From Aquincola sp. (lineage in GTDB: Bacteria; Pseudomonadota; Gammaproteobacteria; Burkholderiales; Burkholderiaceae_C), in assembly GCA_022841885.1 (NCBI GenBank), contig JALHQP010000008.1:1-64000 (forward strand): a stretch of DNA of 64,000 nt, read 5' to 3'. Of this stretch, positions 140 through 5,399 are shown piece after piece. Positions within the stretch are counted from its first letter, which is position 1; each line of letters begins with the position of its first letter. The notes beneath the pieces were generated by a model. That model searched no databases and was not told where the DNA came from. It saw nothing but the letters and a program-made list of their open reading frames with translations. The position numbers were made by a program, and so were the translations under genes.

Positions 140-1186
140 ATGGACAATGCGCGCGTGACCGACGCCGCCGACCTGCTGCACGCGCGCACGCCCGACGCAC
201 GCTTCTACCTCGACGCAACGAGCTTTGCCGCGGTGCGCGAACGGGTCTTCGCGCGCAGCTGGTTGTGGCTCGGCGACCTGGCCGACGCCGAGGCGCCCGG
301 GTCGCTGGTTCCGCGCACCCTGCTGCCGGGCCTGCTCGACGAACCGCTGCTGCTGGCGCGCGACAGCGGCGGCACGCTGCGCTGCCTGCCCAACGTCTGT
401 ACCCACCGCGGCCACCTGCTGGTGGACGCGCCTTGCCGGCGCAGCGACATCCGCTGCCCCTACCACTCGCGCCGCTTCGACCTTGCGGGCACGATGACCT
501 TCATGCCCGGCTTCGAGGGCGTGCCCGACTTCCCGGGTGGGCACGACCATTTGCGCAGCCTGCCGTTCGAGACCTTCGGCGGTCACGGCTTCGTCTCGCT
601 CGATCCGGCCTTCGACTTCGATTCGCAGCTCGCGCCGATCCGCCAACACCTGCCCGGCCTCGCGCTCGAGACCCTCGTGCACGACCCGTCGCGCGACCGC
701 ACCTTCGAGTTCGACGCGCACTGGGCGCTGTACGTCGAGAACTACCTCGAGGGCCTGCACATCCCCTTCCTGCATCCGGGGCTGATGACGGCGCTGGACT
801 GGCCACGCTACCGCTACGAACTGCATCCCTGGGGCAACCTGCAGCTCGGGCTCGACGAACAAGGTGGCGTCGCGGCGCACTACTTCTGGCTGTTCCCAAA
901 CCTGATGCTGAACTTCTACCCCTGGGGCCTGTCGCTCAACCAGGTGCAGCCGCTCGGGCCCGCACGCACGCGCGTGGTGTTCCGCAGTTACGTTGCAAGA
1001 CCCGAGCTGCTCGGCCGGGGCGCCGGCGGCGCGCTCGACGCGGTGGAAATGGAGGACGAGGCCGCGGTGCAGTCGGTGCAGCGCGGCCTGCGCTCGCGCC
1101 TGTACCGCGGCGGCCGCTACTCGCCGCAGCACGAACGCGGCGTGCACCAGTTCCACCGGCTGCTGGCGCGCTGTCTCGACGCCTGA
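140..1186 (+). CDS. Rieske [2Fe-2S] aromatic-ring-hydroxylating oxygenase, alpha-subunit type
   Basis: This 348-aa protein has the order of a ring-hydroxylating oxygenase large subunit. An N-terminal Rieske domain carries CTHRGH and then CPYHSRRF, the Cys-His/Cys-His ligands of a [2Fe-2S] cluster. The C-terminal catalytic domain carries ENYLEGLHIPFLHPG, with the two His and upstream acidic residue typical of the mononuclear iron site. Such enzymes hydroxylate or demethylate aromatic or quaternary-amine substrates using electrons from a separate reductase; no reductase or beta subunit lies nearby. I chose the ATG at MDNARV because the frame upstream of it is low-complexity and overlaps the preceding gene. 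The substrate cannot be read from sequence. Confidence 0.85.
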   Translation: MDNARVTDAADLLHARTPDARFYLDATSFAAVRERVFARSWLWLGDLADAEAPGSLVPRTLLPGLLDEPLLLARDSGGTLRCLPNVCTHRGHLLVDAPCRRSDIRCPYHSRRFDLAGTMTFMPGFEGVPDFPGGHDHLRSLPFETFGGHGFVSLDPAFDFDSQLAPIRQHLPGLALETLVHDPSRDRTFEFDAHWALYVENYLEGLHIPFLHPGLMTALDWPRYRYELHPWGNLQLGLDEQGGVAAHYFWLFPNLMLNFYPWGLSLNQVQPLGPARTRVVFRSYVARPELLGRGAGGALDAVEMEDEAAVQSVQRGLRSRLYRGGRYSPQHERGVHQFHRLLARCLDA

Positions 1187-1216
1187 AGCCGGTGGACGCG
1201 GGTTATCCGCCGCGGC

Positions 1217-2887
1217 TCAGAGCCCGCCCTTGCGCCACGGCCCGCGGATCGCGAAGGTGATGCCCGGCGACTGGATGCTGACGAACAGCACCTGGCCCCT
1301 GGGGTCGAAGCAGGCGCCGCAGAACTCGCTGCCCAGGTAGCTGCCCGGTGCCACCAGCTTGCCGGCCGCGCCAATCTGGTCCGCCGTCAGCACCACGTTG
1401 TTGCGGCAGAACTCGTAGGCCGCACCGTCCACTTCGAGGCCGAGCAGTCGCGAGGCCCCGGCGCTGCCCACGCCACCGTCCTCGCACAACAGCAGGCCAC
1501 CGCGCGGGCTGACCGTGATGTTGTCCGGGTTGTTGGCCGCCATCGCGTCGCCGCTGGCGAAGATGCAGCGCAGGCGTTGGCTGCGCAGGTCGAGCTCCCA
1601 CACGGCGCCTTCGCCGCGGCCCGGACGACCGCTGCCGTCCAGCCCCGCCGCGGTGTCGACGATGAACATGCGGCCCGCCGAGTACCAGATGCCCTCGCCG
1701 CGGCTCATGCGCGCGCAGCCCTGCGACAGCGCCTGGTGCGTCGGACCGGCCATGAAGCCCAGGCTGACGCCGCCGGGCTGGTCGGTCACGACCACCGGGC
1801 TGGCGTCGGGGTCGGCGATGTCCACCCACTCGAGCTTGTACTCGTCGCCGATGTCGGGGTTCAGCAATCCCTGGTCGTTGACCTGCGCCAGCGTGCCCGG
1901 CCGCGCCTGGCGCACGATGTGCACGATGCGCGCGGCCTGCAGCGTGCCGCCCCAGTGCAGGCGGCCCGGGTGCTTGGGCCGGAAGCGGAAGAAGGCCGAG
2001 AGATTGCGGCTGTCCTCGGTTTCGTAGACGTCGCCCGTGCGCGGGTCGACCGCCACCGCCTCGTGCGCGAAGCGGCCCAGGCCGACCAGCGGCTTGGCGT
2101 TCGACTCGCGCGGCTCGGCCGCCGACTCGAACACATAGCCGTGCTTCTTGCCGCCGATGCCGGACAGGTCGAGGACGGTCTCCTCGCAGGTCAGCCAGGT
2201 GCCCCAGGGCGTGGGCCCGCCGGCGCAGTTGACGATGGTGCCGCCGAGCGAGGCTTCGCTGCCGCGCCACGCGTCGCCGCGGTAGTGCAGGTTGGTCGTG
2301 CCGCCGGCGGCATAGCCGACGTAGGGCGTGGGGTCGGGCGCCGCGGGGTTGGTGACCGTGCCGCTGGCGCCGATGCGGATCACGCCGCCGTTGTAGGGCA
2401 CGCGAATGATGCCGTTGACCAGCCCGGTGTCGTAGCTCGGGGCATTGAGGATGGTGGCGTCCACCGTGGCGGCCAGGCCGCGCTCGTGGTTGCGCACCAG
2501 CACCAGGCCCTGCCCATGGCCATGCCGGTAGCGGTGCGTGTCGACCACGGCCATGCCGTCGTGGTTGCTCGGCGTCGGCCGGCCGTCGCTCATCGGGTCG
2601 CCGGTCCAGCCGAAGGACCGGTATTCGAAGCCCTGCGGCAGCTGGAGCAGCGGCAGGCCGGTGCTCGCATCGGCCACCGGCGCGAGTGCACCGAAGGGCG
2701 ACGGCGCGGGCAGCATCTGCTTGCCCACGGCGGGCGCGGTCGGTTCGTCGCGGCCGATCGCCATCGCCTGGCGCGTGGCGAGTGCCCCGAGCAGAGTCAA
2801 GGTGCCCTGGGCAGCAGCGATCGTGGCGGAGCCCTGCAGCAGGCGGCGGCGAGAGAGAGCGGGCGAGGTCGTGGCCATGGCGTCCAT
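1217..2887 (-). CDS. PhoX-type (DUF839) secreted phosphatase-like protein
   Basis: This 556-aa protein starts with a Tat-type signal: twin arginines in SRRRLLQGS, then a hydrophobic stretch ending near residue 43 (RQAMA). The mature part has DUF839/PhoX landmarks: NCAGGPTPWGTWLTCEE, an RFAHEAVAVDP segment followed by YETEDS, and a late CEDGG motif. PhoX enzymes are periplasmic Ca/Fe-dependent phosphomonoesterases, but the wider family also contains proteins of unknown activity. It is convergent with the Rieske gene and divergent from a second, shorter DUF839 protein. The start could also be the Met three codons further in (MATTSP). Confidence 0.85.
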   Translation of the reverse strand: MDAMATTSPALSRRRLLQGSATIAAAQGTLTLLGALATRQAMAIGRDEPTAPAVGKQMLPAPSPFGALAPVADASTGLPLLQLPQGFEYRSFGWTGDPMSDGRPTPSNHDGMAVVDTHRYRHGHGQGLVLVRNHERGLAATVDATILNAPSYDTGLVNGIIRVPYNGGVIRIGASGTVTNPAAPDPTPYVGYAAGGTTNLHYRGDAWRGSEASLGGTIVNCAGGPTPWGTWLTCEETVLDLSGIGGKKHGYVFESAAEPRESNAKPLVGLGRFAHEAVAVDPRTGDVYETEDSRNLSAFFRFRPKHPGRLHWGGTLQAARIVHIVRQARPGTLAQVNDQGLLNPDIGDEYKLEWVDIADPDASPVVVTDQPGGVSLGFMAGPTHQALSQGCARMSRGEGIWYSAGRMFIVDTAAGLDGSGRPGRGEGAVWELDLRSQRLRCIFASGDAMAANNPDNITVSPRGGLLLCEDGGVGSAGASRLLGLEVDGAAYEFCRNNVVLTADQIGAAGKLVAPGSYLGSEFCGACFDPRGQVLFVSIQSPGITFAIRGPWRKGGL

Positions 2888-2997
2888 TCAATGGGGTGGA
2901 GGGAGCGACGATCCTCGGCGTCGCCGATGACGGGCGCGTGAAGGGCGGCCGTCATCGAAGCGCAACTCGGCTCCGCCTGCCGCTAGCATCGACTGCC

Positions 2998-4233
2998 ATG
3001 CCGATCCTTCGTCCCGCCCTGCACCGCCGCACGCTGCTGAAGGCGCTCACCGGCAGCGCTGTCGCCTCGCTGGCGCCGGTGCTCGCCAGCGTCGGCCACG
3101 ACGCGCGCGCCGCAGGGCGCGCGCGCAGCAACCTCGCCCACCTCGGCCCGCTGGGTCCGCCCGATGCGAACGGCGTGCGTTTGCCGGCGGGCTTCCGCTC
3201 GCGCATCGTCGCGCGTGCGGGTGCGCCGATGCCCGGCGAGTCGGACGGCTATCGCTGGCACGACGCGCCCGATGGCGGCGCGGTGTTCGCGTCGCCCGAT
3301 GGCGGGTGGGTCTACGTCAGCAACAGCGAGTTGCCCGAGCGCCGCGGCGGCGTCGGCGCGCTGCGCTTCGACCGCCAGGCGCGCCTGGTCGCGCAGTACG
3401 CCCTCTGCAGCGGCACCTCGCGCAACTGCGCCGGCGGCCCGACACCCTGGGGTAGCTGGCTGAGCTGCGAGGAAGTGCCCGACGGCCAGGTGTGGGAGTG
3501 CGCGATCGACGGCCGCACCCCGGCGCGCGTGCTGCCCGCGCTCGGCCGCTTCAATCACGAAGCCGCGGCAGTGGACCCGGTTCGGCGCCACGTGTACCTG
3601 ACCGAGGACACGCGCCACGGTGCCGTCTTCCGCTTTGTGCCGAGTGCGGCCGACTGGCCGCGCGGGGCACCGCGCGCGGCACTCTCGCAAGGCGTGCTGC
3701 AGCTGATGGTGGTGGACGACCGCACCGCGCCCTTCCCGCCGGCCGACGGCGACGTGTCGGCGCGCTGGCCGGTGCGCTGGGTCGACTGGCTGCCGGGCAG
3801 GGCGCGGCCCGCGGCCTCGCGCTTCGCCGGCGGCGAGGGCCTGTGGATCCATGGGGACCTGGTGTACTTCGCGACCAAGGGCGACGACCGCGTCTGGCGC
3901 TTCGACGCGGCGCGCTCGATGCTGAGCGTGGCCTACGACGACACCATGCCCGGCGGCGGCGTGCTGACCGGGGTCGACAACCTGGTCGCCAACGACGCCG
4001 GTGACGTGCTGGTGGCCGAGGACGGCGGCGACATGCAGATCGTGGCGATCACGACCGACGGCCAGGTGCGGCCGCTGCTGCAGGTGGTCGGCCACGACCG
4101 CTCCGAGATCGCCGGCCCGGCCTTCAGCCCCGACGGCACGCGCCTGTACTTCAGTTCGCAATGGGCGCTGCAGCCCGACGGCCGGCGCGGCATCACCTAC
4201 GAGGTGACCGGGCCTTTCGTGCGGCCGGGCTGA
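2998..4233 (+). CDS. PhoX-type (DUF839) secreted protein, short form
   Basis: A 411-aa paralogue of the upstream divergent gene. It shares the hallmark NCAGGPTPWGSWLSCEE, then RFNHEAAAVDP and YLTEDT, and a terminal AEDGG block. The N-terminus (HRRTLLKALTGS plus a hydrophobic core) is a plausible Tat signal. It is about 145 residues shorter than its neighbour. I start it at MPILRP; a longer open frame upstream overlaps the divergent promoter region and has no signal-like start. A TAGCAT -10-like hexamer lies 8 bases before the ATG, so the mRNA may have almost no leader. Family activity would be phosphoesterase, but substrate and metal use are not visible. Confidence 0.83.
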   Translation: MPILRPALHRRTLLKALTGSAVASLAPVLASVGHDARAAGRARSNLAHLGPLGPPDANGVRLPAGFRSRIVARAGAPMPGESDGYRWHDAPDGGAVFASPDGGWVYVSNSELPERRGGVGALRFDRQARLVAQYALCSGTSRNCAGGPTPWGSWLSCEEVPDGQVWECAIDGRTPARVLPALGRFNHEAAAVDPVRRHVYLTEDTRHGAVFRFVPSAADWPRGAPRAALSQGVLQLMVVDDRTAPFPPADGDVSARWPVRWVDWLPGRARPAASRFAGGEGLWIHGDLVYFATKGDDRVWRFDAARSMLSVAYDDTMPGGGVLTGVDNLVANDAGDVLVAEDGGDMQIVAITTDGQVRPLLQVVGHDRSEIAGPAFSPDGTRLYFSSQWALQPDGRRGITYEVTGPFVRPG

Positions 4234-4240
4234 GGCGGGC

Positions 4241-4573
4241 TCAGACCAGGGTCAGCGCCGAGGCGGCGCCGCGCGACGGCAGCAGCTCGCCCGGCGGCAC
4301 GCCGTCGCTGATGTCGACCACGCCCACCAGCGTGGCCGCGCGCTCGCACAGCACGCGCCAGTCGTGGCGGCCCATGCGCGCGTTCACGCGCAGCCAGCCG
4401 GTGCCGGCCGGGCCGGCGTAGGCGTCGAAGTGCATGCGCAGCGGCAAGGCACCGCGCAGCGAGAACAGCTCCAGCACGCGCATCAGCGTGGTGGCATCGC
4501 GCTCGAGCGTCACGTGCACGCAGAACGCGTCGACGGTGTTGTCGAAGACGGAAAGAGGGTCGGAGGTGGACAT
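4241..4573 (-). CDS. Small ACT-like protein, possible amino-acid-sensing regulatory subunit
   Basis: A 110-aa protein whose residues ~15-85 follow a beta-alpha-beta-beta-alpha-beta pattern like the ACT folds of IlvM/IlvN: a VHVTLERDATTLMRVLELF start and a VGVVDISDG end. I recognise the pattern, not a specific orthologue. The start ATG follows AGGG at about 9 bases. No catalytic acetolactate synthase gene is adjacent, so it would act in trans or have another partner. Upstream lies a leader peptide with four Ile codons near its end and several hairpins, which supports a role tied to branched-chain amino acids. The assignment to ACT is moderate; the regulatory role is inference. Confidence 0.6.
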   Translation of the reverse strand: MSTSDPLSVFDNTVDAFCVHVTLERDATTLMRVLELFSLRGALPLRMHFDAYAGPAGTGWLRVNARMGRHDWRVLCERAATLVGVVDISDGVPPGELLPSRGAASALTLV

Positions 4574-4579
4574 CGATGG

Positions 4580-4693
4580 ATTCCCTGCACGAGCGGCTGA
4601 GGTGCCCGCCAGGCGGCGGGTCCGGAGCGCGGGCCGCCCGGCGGGGCGGCGACTGACTCGGCGTGCGCGACGGATGCCGAGTCAGCAGGGAAT
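4580..4693 (-). promoter_or_regulatory. Candidate translational attenuator upstream of the ACT-like gene
   Basis: In the minus-strand transcript, ATTCCCTGC (last Ile-Pro-Cys codons of the leader peptide) is perfectly complementary to GCAGGGAAT, which contains the AGGG Shine-Dalgarno of the ACT-like gene. Between these 9-nt arms lie three further inverted repeats: a perfect 10-bp stem at 4653-4662/4676-4685 that overlaps the leader stop codon, a 7-bp stem at 4633-4639/4644-4650 and a 6-bp stem at 4605-4610/4615-4620. The closed structure would hide the ribosome site. A ribosome stalled on the Ile codons would cover the 5' arm and free it. No U-run is present, so translational rather than transcriptional control is favoured. 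This is a prediction. Confidence 0.5.
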
Positions 4694-4768
4694 TCGAATG
4701 ATGATCGAGGCGCGCAGGGCCGCCGCTGCGCGGCAGCGCGTGGGCAGGATGCGACGGGCCGGGACCAT
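4682..4768 (-). CDS. 28-aa Ile-rich leader peptide (candidate)
   Basis: ATG to TGA encodes MVPARRILPT, then an Arg/Ala-rich middle, ending ASIIIRIPC. The run ATC-ATC-ATT-CGA-ATT puts four Ile codons within five just before the stop, the pattern expected of a sensing leader. A TACACT -10-like element sits about 7 bases before the ATG, so the transcript could begin at or near the ATG (leaderless); I see no Shine-Dalgarno. The stop codon lies inside the 10-bp stem described for the attenuator. It could be a chance short frame, but Ile codons together with the complementary Shine-Dalgarno make that less likely. Confidence 0.5.
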   Translation of the reverse strand: MVPARRILPTRCRAAAALRASIIIRIPC

Positions 4769-4811
4769 GGGCGCAGTGTAGCCCGGCGCCGCGCTTGGGC
4801 GCATCGACGGC

Positions 4812-5399
4812 TCAGCCGCGATGCGCCTCGATCACGCCGCAAGCGATGCGCGCGCCGGCGTTGCCGGTCGGCTGCGTGCGGTAGTCGTCCGGGTCGGCGT
4901 GCACGATCAGGCCGCGGCCGACGATGTTGGCCGCGCCGCTGCCGATGGCGAGGCCCGTGAGCTGCAGGTGCACGTCCACCCGGCCCGCCGCGTCGGCCTT
5001 CAGCGATGGCAGGTCGCCGGCGTGGCGCTCGGCTGCGTCGTGCCTGCCGTGCGGCTTGCCGCCCGGGTTGAAGTGGCCCCCGGTGCTCATGCCGTCGCCG
5101 CTGCTGCAGTCACCCTTGTCGTGGATGTGAAAGCCATGCTCCTGCCCCGGCTTCAGGCCCTGCACTCGCACGTGCAGCATCACCACATCGCCGCGCTGGT
5201 GGAACATGGCCATGCCCGAGGCGGTATGGCCGCGCGTGGACTCCAGGCGCGCCATCGCCATCGGGCCGCCGGGCATGCCGGGCGCAGCCATGCCGCCAGC
5301 GCCCGACGCGCTCTGCGGCGATCCATGACCGGCGTGCGGGCTGCCACAGCCGGCCAGCGCGACGGCCGCGGCCGCGGCCGCCAGGGTGCGCATTTCCAT
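4812..5399 (-). CDS. sodC: Cu/Zn superoxide dismutase, lipoprotein form
   Basis: A 195-aa protein that dismutates superoxide in the periplasm. The N-terminus is a lipoprotein signal with lipobox LAGC (Cys 18), so it should be membrane-anchored. The SOD domain shows GFHIHDKGDC and GGHFNPGGKPHG (copper and zinc His ligands), HAGDLPSLKADAAG with the zinc region, and IVHADPDDY with the last His, then GNAGARIACG with the disulfide Cys and conserved Arg. A Met/Gly/His-rich linker precedes the domain. The start ATG has GGAGG at 7 bases. Its nearest neighbours are not functionally related. Confidence 0.93.
   Translation of the reverse strand: MEMRTLAAAAAAVALAGCGSPHAGHGSPQSASGAGGMAAPGMPGGPMAMARLESTRGHTASGMAMFHQRGDVVMLHVRVQGLKPGQEHGFHIHDKGDCSSGDGMSTGGHFNPGGKPHGRHDAAERHAGDLPSLKADAAGRVDVHLQLTGLAIGSGAANIVGRGLIVHADPDDYRTQPTGNAGARIACGVIEAHRG

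Follow-up and report, generated by a model that had tools for sequence, protein, structure and literature searches.

The trp, his, ilv, and leu operons are controlled by ribosome-mediated transcription attenuators, in which a leader peptide is coupled to mutually exclusive 1:2, 2:3, and 3:4 pairings of the leader RNA. In the erm leaders, which are drug-induced translational attenuators, the position of the ribosome on an upstream open reading frame (uORF) decides whether the Shine-Dalgarno sequence is masked. The nearest precedent for the leader considered here is, from its description in PMC1262725, the LEU element upstream of leuA in Actinobacteria, in which leucine codons pair with the leuA Shine-Dalgarno sequence and a pseudoknot is possible; the same source also treats trp and ilv attenuation. 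Our work concerns a 64,000-nucleotide stretch of DNA from Aquincola sp. (the window). On balance, we favor the reading that a region in this window belongs to an undescribed family of uORF-based translational attenuators that respond to isoleucine and precede an orphan gene for an ACT-type protein.

How does this leader compare with the described systems? Like the LEU element, it combines a leader ORF carrying regulatory codons with a possible pseudoknot (PMC1262725). However, the pairing of regulatory codons with the Shine-Dalgarno sequence that characterizes the LEU element as described there is found in the window only, and the other 11 members of the family have 3 to 5 such pairs. The LEU element also differs in its leucine codons, its target leuA, and its actinobacterial hosts, the two are likened by description and not by sequence, and section 4 of PMC1262725 describes neither a leaderless start nor a stop-codon hairpin for it. 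With the trp, his, ilv, and leu attenuators the leader shares a leader peptide with regulatory codons and the mutually exclusive 1:2, 2:3, and 3:4 pairings, but here the last pairing masks the Shine-Dalgarno sequence, the downstream gene encodes an orphan ACT protein, and a tool scan of window positions 4400 to 5000 found no intrinsic terminator with a U-run, as the original prediction had held. The resemblance to the erm leaders lies in the uORF and in the proposed setting of Shine-Dalgarno masking by ribosome position, whereas the gene controlled here is not a resistance gene, the codons are those for Ile and Arg, the uORF is predicted to be leaderless, and the RNA is different. Neither the leader nor the ACT gene was found described in a literature search at the level of titles and starts of abstracts, with thin coverage of subscription journals. 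We have high confidence that the leader family is real, conserved, and apparently undescribed.

In the window, the uORF is on the minus strand and is flanked by a sodC-like gene (4812-5399; PF00080) and the ACT-type gene (Table 1). The frame, the TACACT hexamer, and the exact complement between ATTCCCTGC and GCAGGGAAT, to which the original prediction had drawn attention, are all present. It had also drawn three nested stems with the stop codon inside one of them; the stop codon does lie within an 11-bp hairpin (GCTGACTCGGC/GCCGAGTCAGT; outermost pair G-U), and the other two stems stand side by side, enclosed by the long helix. A consensus scan found no sigma-70 −35/−10 pair and no −35 box. 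Rfam gave no match at gathering score in the whole window, and a relaxed Rfam search with the window leader and the leaders of loci L010 and L014 returned just tRNAs elsewhere in L014 and weak chance matches. Those tRNA genes lie at 1014-1086 and 1130-1202 (+) of L014, a few hundred bases from its leader-ACT unit. Elsewhere in the window, two convergent genes, 1217-2887 (−) and 2686-4233 (+), have listed frames that overlap and share the motif NCAGGPTPWG(T/S)WL(T/S)CEE; from their sequences they look like diverged copies of one family.

Table 1. Parts of the leader and the downstream gene in the window.
Feature	Coordinates	Strand	Remarks
−10-like box TACACT	4775..4780	−	6 nt 5' of the leader ATG; transcript predicted to be leaderless
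Leader uORF MVPARRILPTRCRAAAALRASIIIRIPC-stop	4682..4768	−	28 codons, end SIIIRIPC; ATG at 4768, stop TGA at 4684-4682
ATT CGA ATT (Ile-Arg-Ile), predicted switch point	4691..4699	−	Codons identical in 12/12 members
Segment 1 GCTGACTCGG, 5' arm of the stop hairpin, containing the stop codon	4677..4686	−	Pairs with segment 2
Segment 2 CCGAGTCAGT, 3' arm of the stop hairpin	4652..4661	−	Pairs 7 and 8 altered on both sides versus the other 11
ATTCCCTGC, 5' arm of the window-only helix that involves the Shine-Dalgarno region	4685..4693	−	9 Watson-Crick pairs
GCAGGGAAT, downstream arm, Shine-Dalgarno region of the ACT gene	4580..4588	−	Exact complement of ATTCCCTGC
Local hairpin GCCGCCC-CGCC-GGGCGGC	4633..4650	−	Occupies the stretch of segments 3/4 in other members
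ACT-type protein, 110 aa, presumed regulated gene	4241..4573	−	ATG at 4573; ACT-like model, pLDDT 61 (low confidence)

Among 60 relative genomes the window ACT protein had no relatives at E up to 1e-5 beyond the window itself, peptide patterns drawn from it found nothing in GTDB contigs, and the best match of a search within the genus had an E value of 0.0092. At E up to 0.01, a looser search of 299 genomes of the family returned 16, the window genome among them. Two of the matches, L010 and L014 in two genomes of one genus, are real homologues that share ERD, RxLxLxxxRG, and RVLxxxAxTLVGV with the window protein. Judged from their alignments, L002, L011 to L013, and L016 to L021 are chance matches (L009 and L015 were left out of this judging), and the top-scoring match, L008, lies out of frame within another gene, presumably one of the sugar-kinase type. 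A search with the L014 protein added L024 and L025 and gave two further weak matches, G031 and G110. Upstream of the L010, L014, L024, and L025 genes lie the uORFs MSGPVAQQAIIRIPR, MSMSPVLKKIRIPR, and MPARLPL(A/V)LIAIIRIPR, all of which end in the same hairpin.

The DNA motif ATTCGAATTCCCYGCTGA, with at most one mismatch, occurs once each in 5 of the 299 family genomes, namely, the window genome and four genomes with an ACT homologue; a search with the L014 protein, which comes from G226, one of these four, hits their ACT genes at E below 1e-25. Scanning GTDB contigs with the extended motif ATTCGAATTCCNYGCTGAC gave 16 stretches, 9 with a full leader and ACT gene (L035, L037, L038, L039, L042, L043, L045, L047, and L048) and 7 in unrelated contexts (L033, L034, L036, L040, L041, L044, and L046). 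L035, L038, and L039 coincide in place with matches in G106, G126, and G226, and each of the nine genomes contains one exact match. The L042 genome has a second match to the leader motif, with one mismatch (G328:C84:6925-6942), which is likely due to chance. A covariance model of 11 sequences (R1), run on 399 genomes of the order, recovered the window and a new locus in another family, L056 (E of 5.7e-10), with the uORF MSSVTPPDSPSVPRIQAIRIRR; the 14 weaker R1 matches (E of 0.0027 to 0.047; one of them an additional match in the window genome, the rest in 13 other genomes) were judged by eye, from their context, to be chance. Plasmids, phages, and viral contigs gave no match in the searches for relatives, and no comparable leader was seen by eye before ilvB of the window genome.

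In total there are 12 distinct loci (the window, L029, L035, L037, L038, L039, L042, L043, L045, L047, L048, and L056), scattered over Burkholderiales genomes. In the genus of Variovorax soli the leader is present in 6 of 101 genomes, all of them previously found; L047 was deposited as Gammaproteobacteria, yet the genome search puts it in this genus. Crude ORF maps of the nine GTDB loci suggest that the leader-plus-ACT unit has differing neighbors across lineages. Such a patchy spread with differing neighbors suggests loss or lateral transfer.

All 12 members have an ACT-type gene 108 to 143 nt after the stop codon of the uORF (108 nt in the window; for L039 and L047 the ATG was picked to fit the alignment, and a nearer in-frame ATG is present). 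They also have a −10-like box 6 to 7 nt before an in-frame ATG, TAGACT in 10, TACACT in the window, and CATAAT in L056; the hexamers were themselves search terms, but the spacing was not imposed. The leaderless placement proposed in the original prediction therefore recurs throughout the family, and we infer that the transcripts start at the leader ATG. The uORFs have 14 to 28 codons and a variable N-terminal part but a common end, I-R-I-x-R/C-stop, with Pro (11 members) or Arg (1 member) at x and Arg as the last residue in all but the window, which has Cys. The expected conservation of the leader frame and its Ile codons is thus borne out by an IRI near the end of the uORF at every locus, although L039 and L056 have just two Ile codons within the conserved end.

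The codons of this core are as constant as its residues. The invariance of ATT-CGA-ATT is by construction for members found solely via the DNA pattern, and it is not by construction for the window, the four protein-found genomes, and L056. In three window genes, ATT accounts for 3 of the 50 Ile codons and CGA for 2 of the 122 Arg codons, and ATT-CGA-ATT is nonetheless kept; the corresponding counts are 5 of 27 and 1 of 34 in one Variovorax-group htpG and 4 of 29 and 7 of 90 in the pooled ACT genes of all 12 members, where CGA is less rare. The stop hairpin has ten pairs, nine of them canonical in 12/12 and the outermost in 11/12. Pairs 7 and 8 are C-G and G-C in 11 members and T-A and C-G in the window, a change on both sides.

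Outside the window, in the other 11 members, the leader contains a chain of five segments that can form the stop hairpin (1:2), an alternative pairing (2:3), an anti-sequestor (3:4), a Shine-Dalgarno sequestor (4:5), and possibly a pseudoknot. Segment 1 comprises the last codon and the stop codon, segment 3 (CCGGGTCGA or a one-base variant) lies 3' of the stop hairpin, segment 4 (TCGATCC or TCGATCT, then ACGCG directly or after one C) follows a poorly conserved spacer of 22 to 34 nt, and segment 5 is the Shine-Dalgarno region. Segment 2 could pair with 1 or 3, and segment 4 could pair with 3 or 5. In 11/11, the Shine-Dalgarno region or the start codon falls within the 4:5 duplex, whose energy is −13.5 to −27.6 kcal/mol. 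This duplex is equaled by at most 5% of shuffles in seven members (L029, L035, L038, L042, L045, L048, and L056) and by more than 5% in four (L037, L039, L043, and L047); in a stricter test, which sets the longest gapless duplex against the whole spacer, five members stay at or below 5% (L037, L038, L042, L045, and L048) and six fail. The 4:5 pairing is kept despite differing Shine-Dalgarno sequences (GGATCGAAG, GGATTGAAG, ACCGGAAG, and AGGAA), and the Aquincola-genus members L029 and L035 have C-G versus U-A within it. The Shine-Dalgarno sequence can thus be masked, in the window by the uORF helix originally envisaged and in the other 11 members by the 4:5 duplex.

In the same 11 members, a pairing is possible between the stop-hairpin loop and the tail that follows segment 4 (−8.9 to −14.9 kcal/mol, calculated without a pseudoknot penalty). 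The first pair of the six-pair core is G-C in 10 and A-U in L039, and the remainder is unchanged. No other 12-nt window of the leader pairs as well in seven members (L035, L037, L038, L042, L045, L047, and L048); those that do number 11/64 in L029, 14/71 in L039, 2/63 in L043, and 5/66 in L056, and shuffled tails match the pairing in 1 to 51 of 500 cases. Across 1:2 and loop:tail there are three both-sided pair changes, two of them from the window alone. Covariation is scarce because segments 1 to 3 hardly vary.

We propose that transcription probably begins at the leader ATG and that a ribosome translates the 14 to 28 codons ending in (Ile)-Ile-Arg-Ile-x-Arg-stop. A ribosome waiting at the first Ile codons would halt just short of segment 1, so that 1:2 could form; segment 3 would be left free, 3:4 would form, possibly locked by pairing of the stop-hairpin loop with the tail after segment 4, and the Shine-Dalgarno sequence would be open (ON). 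A ribosome that reaches the stop codon would cover segment 1, 2:3 would form, and the free segment 4 would mask the Shine-Dalgarno sequence once this is transcribed (OFF). That the leader family acts as a uORF-based translational attenuator is a conclusion in which we have good confidence; that it responds to isoleucine, one in which our confidence is moderate.

Folding of nascent transcripts with a modeled ribosome footprint blocked changes with ribosome position as this scheme predicts at an early cut, and less cleanly in two members at a later cut. With transcripts cut 8 nt after segment 4 (early cut), the second Ile codon in the A site gives 1:2 probabilities of 0.96 to 1.00 and 3:4 probabilities of 0.63 to 0.99 in 11/11, and the stop codon in the A site gives 0 for 1:2 and at most 0.12 for 3:4 in 11/11. 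With the cut at 24 nt before the ATG (later cut), 3:4 is 0.73 to 0.99 at the Ile codon in 10/11 (0.28 in L048) and at most 0.10 at the stop codon in 10/11 (0.32 in L038). Ribosome-free folds have 3:4 anywhere from 0.00 to 0.97. At the early cut the fold changes between the second and third Ile codons. With the ribosome at the second Ile codon the mean 3:4 probability is 0.77 to 0.97 for footprint edges from +13 to +17, and over the same shift the result at CGA is mixed, falling from 0.87 to 0.08. Ribosomes placed at three codons 5' of the second Ile codon give means of 0.70 to 0.96, with 3:4 favored in most members. Specificity for Ile would therefore rest on codon content, since earlier codons also favor 3:4.

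Full-length folds at equilibrium fail as proof of a switch. In 10/11 members 4:5 wins, with a probability of at least 0.85 in every ribosome state tried, and mean Shine-Dalgarno access barely changes with ribosome position. Forcing 3:4 in the Ile state costs 0 to 8.5 kcal/mol, which the gain from the loop-tail pairing could offset in a rough count without a pseudoknot penalty; the folding programs used cannot include this pseudoknot. Because full-length folds keep 4:5, the switch would need cotranscriptional kinetics or the pseudoknot. As modeled, then, it is either kinetic or pseudoknot assisted, or our scheme is wrong in this detail.

The window is the most diverged member found, an outlier of the leader family. 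A pattern search did not find segments 3 and 4 in it, and the five-segment model is therefore inapplicable there. The window retains the uORF, stop hairpin, and gene, and the end of its uORF would pair directly with the Shine-Dalgarno region, through 9 Watson-Crick pairs versus 3 to 5 in the other 11 members; the last codon, changed from CGC to TGC in the window only, contributes to this complement. The original prediction had treated the 9-nt helix as the core of the switch and had named arms that vary without compensation as a possible refutation. That refutation applies here: the helix, the most unusual trait of the window, does not extend to the family as a general feature, and its arms are not kept outside the window. 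When the leader, taken to 30 nt 5' of the ATG, is dinucleotide shuffled, 16 of 2,000 shuffles contain a 9-bp Watson-Crick match to the 22 nt preceding the ATG; shuffling of the uORF alone gives 12 of 2,000. With G-U pairs allowed, 85 of 500 shuffles equal the helix, which for this reason is modest evidence when taken alone. The decisive evidence is the retention of the frame, the promoter box, and the stop hairpin in other genomes.

In the minimum-energy fold of the window leader, the Shine-Dalgarno sequence pairs with an earlier stretch of the uORF, CCCTGCGCG (CCCTGC), and not with ATTCCCTGC; in the centroid fold it is paired with ATTCCCTGC. The fold energy has a z-score of −1.61, and 14 of 200 shuffles are as stable. 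Since the end of the uORF can pair with the Shine-Dalgarno sequence, a ribosome paused at the Ile codons would free the ACT gene from masking. With a ribosome placed there, the model gives a mean Shine-Dalgarno access of about 0.44, up from 0.29, and access is 0.39 with the ribosome at the stop codon; by this calculation the effect is weak.

What is the target? An ACT-type product, as originally proposed, agrees with weak profile similarity and with ACT-like fold models. Seven of 11 members touch the profile of the acetolactate synthase small subunit (NCBIfam TIGR00119; best E of 0.0023) below its curated cutoff (15.2 bits for the L042 protein versus a cutoff of 56.9), 4 of 11 touch Pfam ACT_5 (best E of 0.027), and the family profile matches PDB entry 2pc6 at an E of 0.012; the window protein has no Pfam or NCBIfam match at E up to 10. 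The model of the L042 homologue, from the Variovorax group, has an ACT-type beta-alpha-beta-beta-alpha-beta fold (pLDDT of 83) and 65 PDB matches at E up to 0.001, with NikR first and ACT domains prominent among the matches listed, which include those of Rel and phosphoglycerate dehydrogenase as well as IlvN. In the model-based fold search, acetolactate synthase small subunits thus stand no higher than NikR and other ACT domains. The weak model of the window protein has no PDB match at E up to 0.001 (best E of 0.0049), and its next matches include several acetolactate synthase small subunits.

The family therefore resembles the ACT domain of these small subunits (IlvH and IlvN; TIGR00119; PDB 2pc6, 2f1f, and 5ypp) in its fold and in a weak similarity to the N-terminal ACT domain profile but differs from them in scoring below curated cutoffs and in consisting of stand-alone proteins of 87 to 110 aa. 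Since 11 of the 12 genomes encode a separate, full-scoring small subunit, we regard the ACT protein as an extra, orphan protein, whose role may lie in branched-chain amino acid synthesis. The distant likeness to acetolactate synthase small subunits makes a shortage of Ile-tRNA the likeliest signal.

Other readings of the leader have to be weighed against this one. The I-R-I-x-R end might stall the ribosome as a nascent peptide that senses a small molecule or drug and not a shortage of Ile-tRNA; peptide-mediated stalling with a small molecule or drug is known from TnaC and the Erm leaders. The confinement of conservation to the last five or six residues, with a variable N-terminal part, and an Arg as constant as the Ile residues in the IRI core would suit such a peptide. 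However, the x position (Pro in 11, Arg in 1) and the last residue (Arg in 11, Cys in the window) both vary, a stall near the stop codon gives the OFF fold in the model, and the synonymous positions of ATT, CGA, and ATT are kept even in members not found by the DNA pattern, which a peptide signal by itself does not need; we consider this reading fairly unlikely. The constant Arg codon might itself be the sensor, with the ribosome waiting at CGA in response to arginine. CGA is present in 12/12 leaders and is rare in the window genes (2/122) and in the Variovorax-group htpG (1/34), though not so rare in the 12 ACT genes (7/90), but the outcome of folding at CGA is mixed, with a mean 3:4 probability that varies between 0.87 and 0.08 according to the footprint edge, and the weak similarities of the target point to regulators of the Ile/Val pathway, so that an arginine-responsive attenuator seems to us quite improbable.

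Two further explanations would relocate the control. Stalled ribosomes could hide or expose a Rho site in a pyrimidine-rich spacer, with the Shine-Dalgarno pairing being secondary; this would fit the lack of an intrinsic terminator in the window scan and the C- and U-rich stretch seen by eye 5' of segment 4 in several members, and Rho-type attenuation has been suggested for the actinobacterial cys leaders covered in PMC1262725. We hold Rho-dependent transcription attenuation to be unlikely, because the best-conserved piece of the spacer pairs with the Shine-Dalgarno region and is not a pyrimidine tract. Alternatively, ATTCGAAT, a perfect palindrome, and the stop hairpin, an inverted repeat at the DNA level, could bind a repressor, the short ORF being there by chance. 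It would surprise us greatly if the region were a DNA operator of this kind: the frame is open and starts 6 to 7 nt from the −10 box in 12/12 despite length changes, and the hairpin arms of the window have changed on both sides with pairing retained.

Within the favored reading of an Ile-responsive translational attenuator, we tentatively put forward a more specific possibility, which may well not hold in full. The unit could be a self-contained sensor plus effector present at scattered chromosomal sites, with a leaderless uORF, a five-segment chain that acts kinetically on the Shine-Dalgarno sequence and is locked in the ON state by a pseudoknot joining the stop-hairpin loop to the sequestor tail, and an ACT protein that tunes branched-chain amino acid synthesis; in the window, the chain would have collapsed to a direct helix between the uORF and the Shine-Dalgarno region. 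If so, the window lineage would show how such switches get rewired, and the two architectures, the chain in 11 members and the direct helix in the window, provide a natural comparison of one control logic. The leader-ACT unit is small, was seen in one full copy per genome, and lends itself to reporter tests. If our reading is right, these bacteria would have a Gram-negative amino acid attenuator that acts from a leaderless uORF on translation, not transcription, and that controls an uncharacterized ACT protein.
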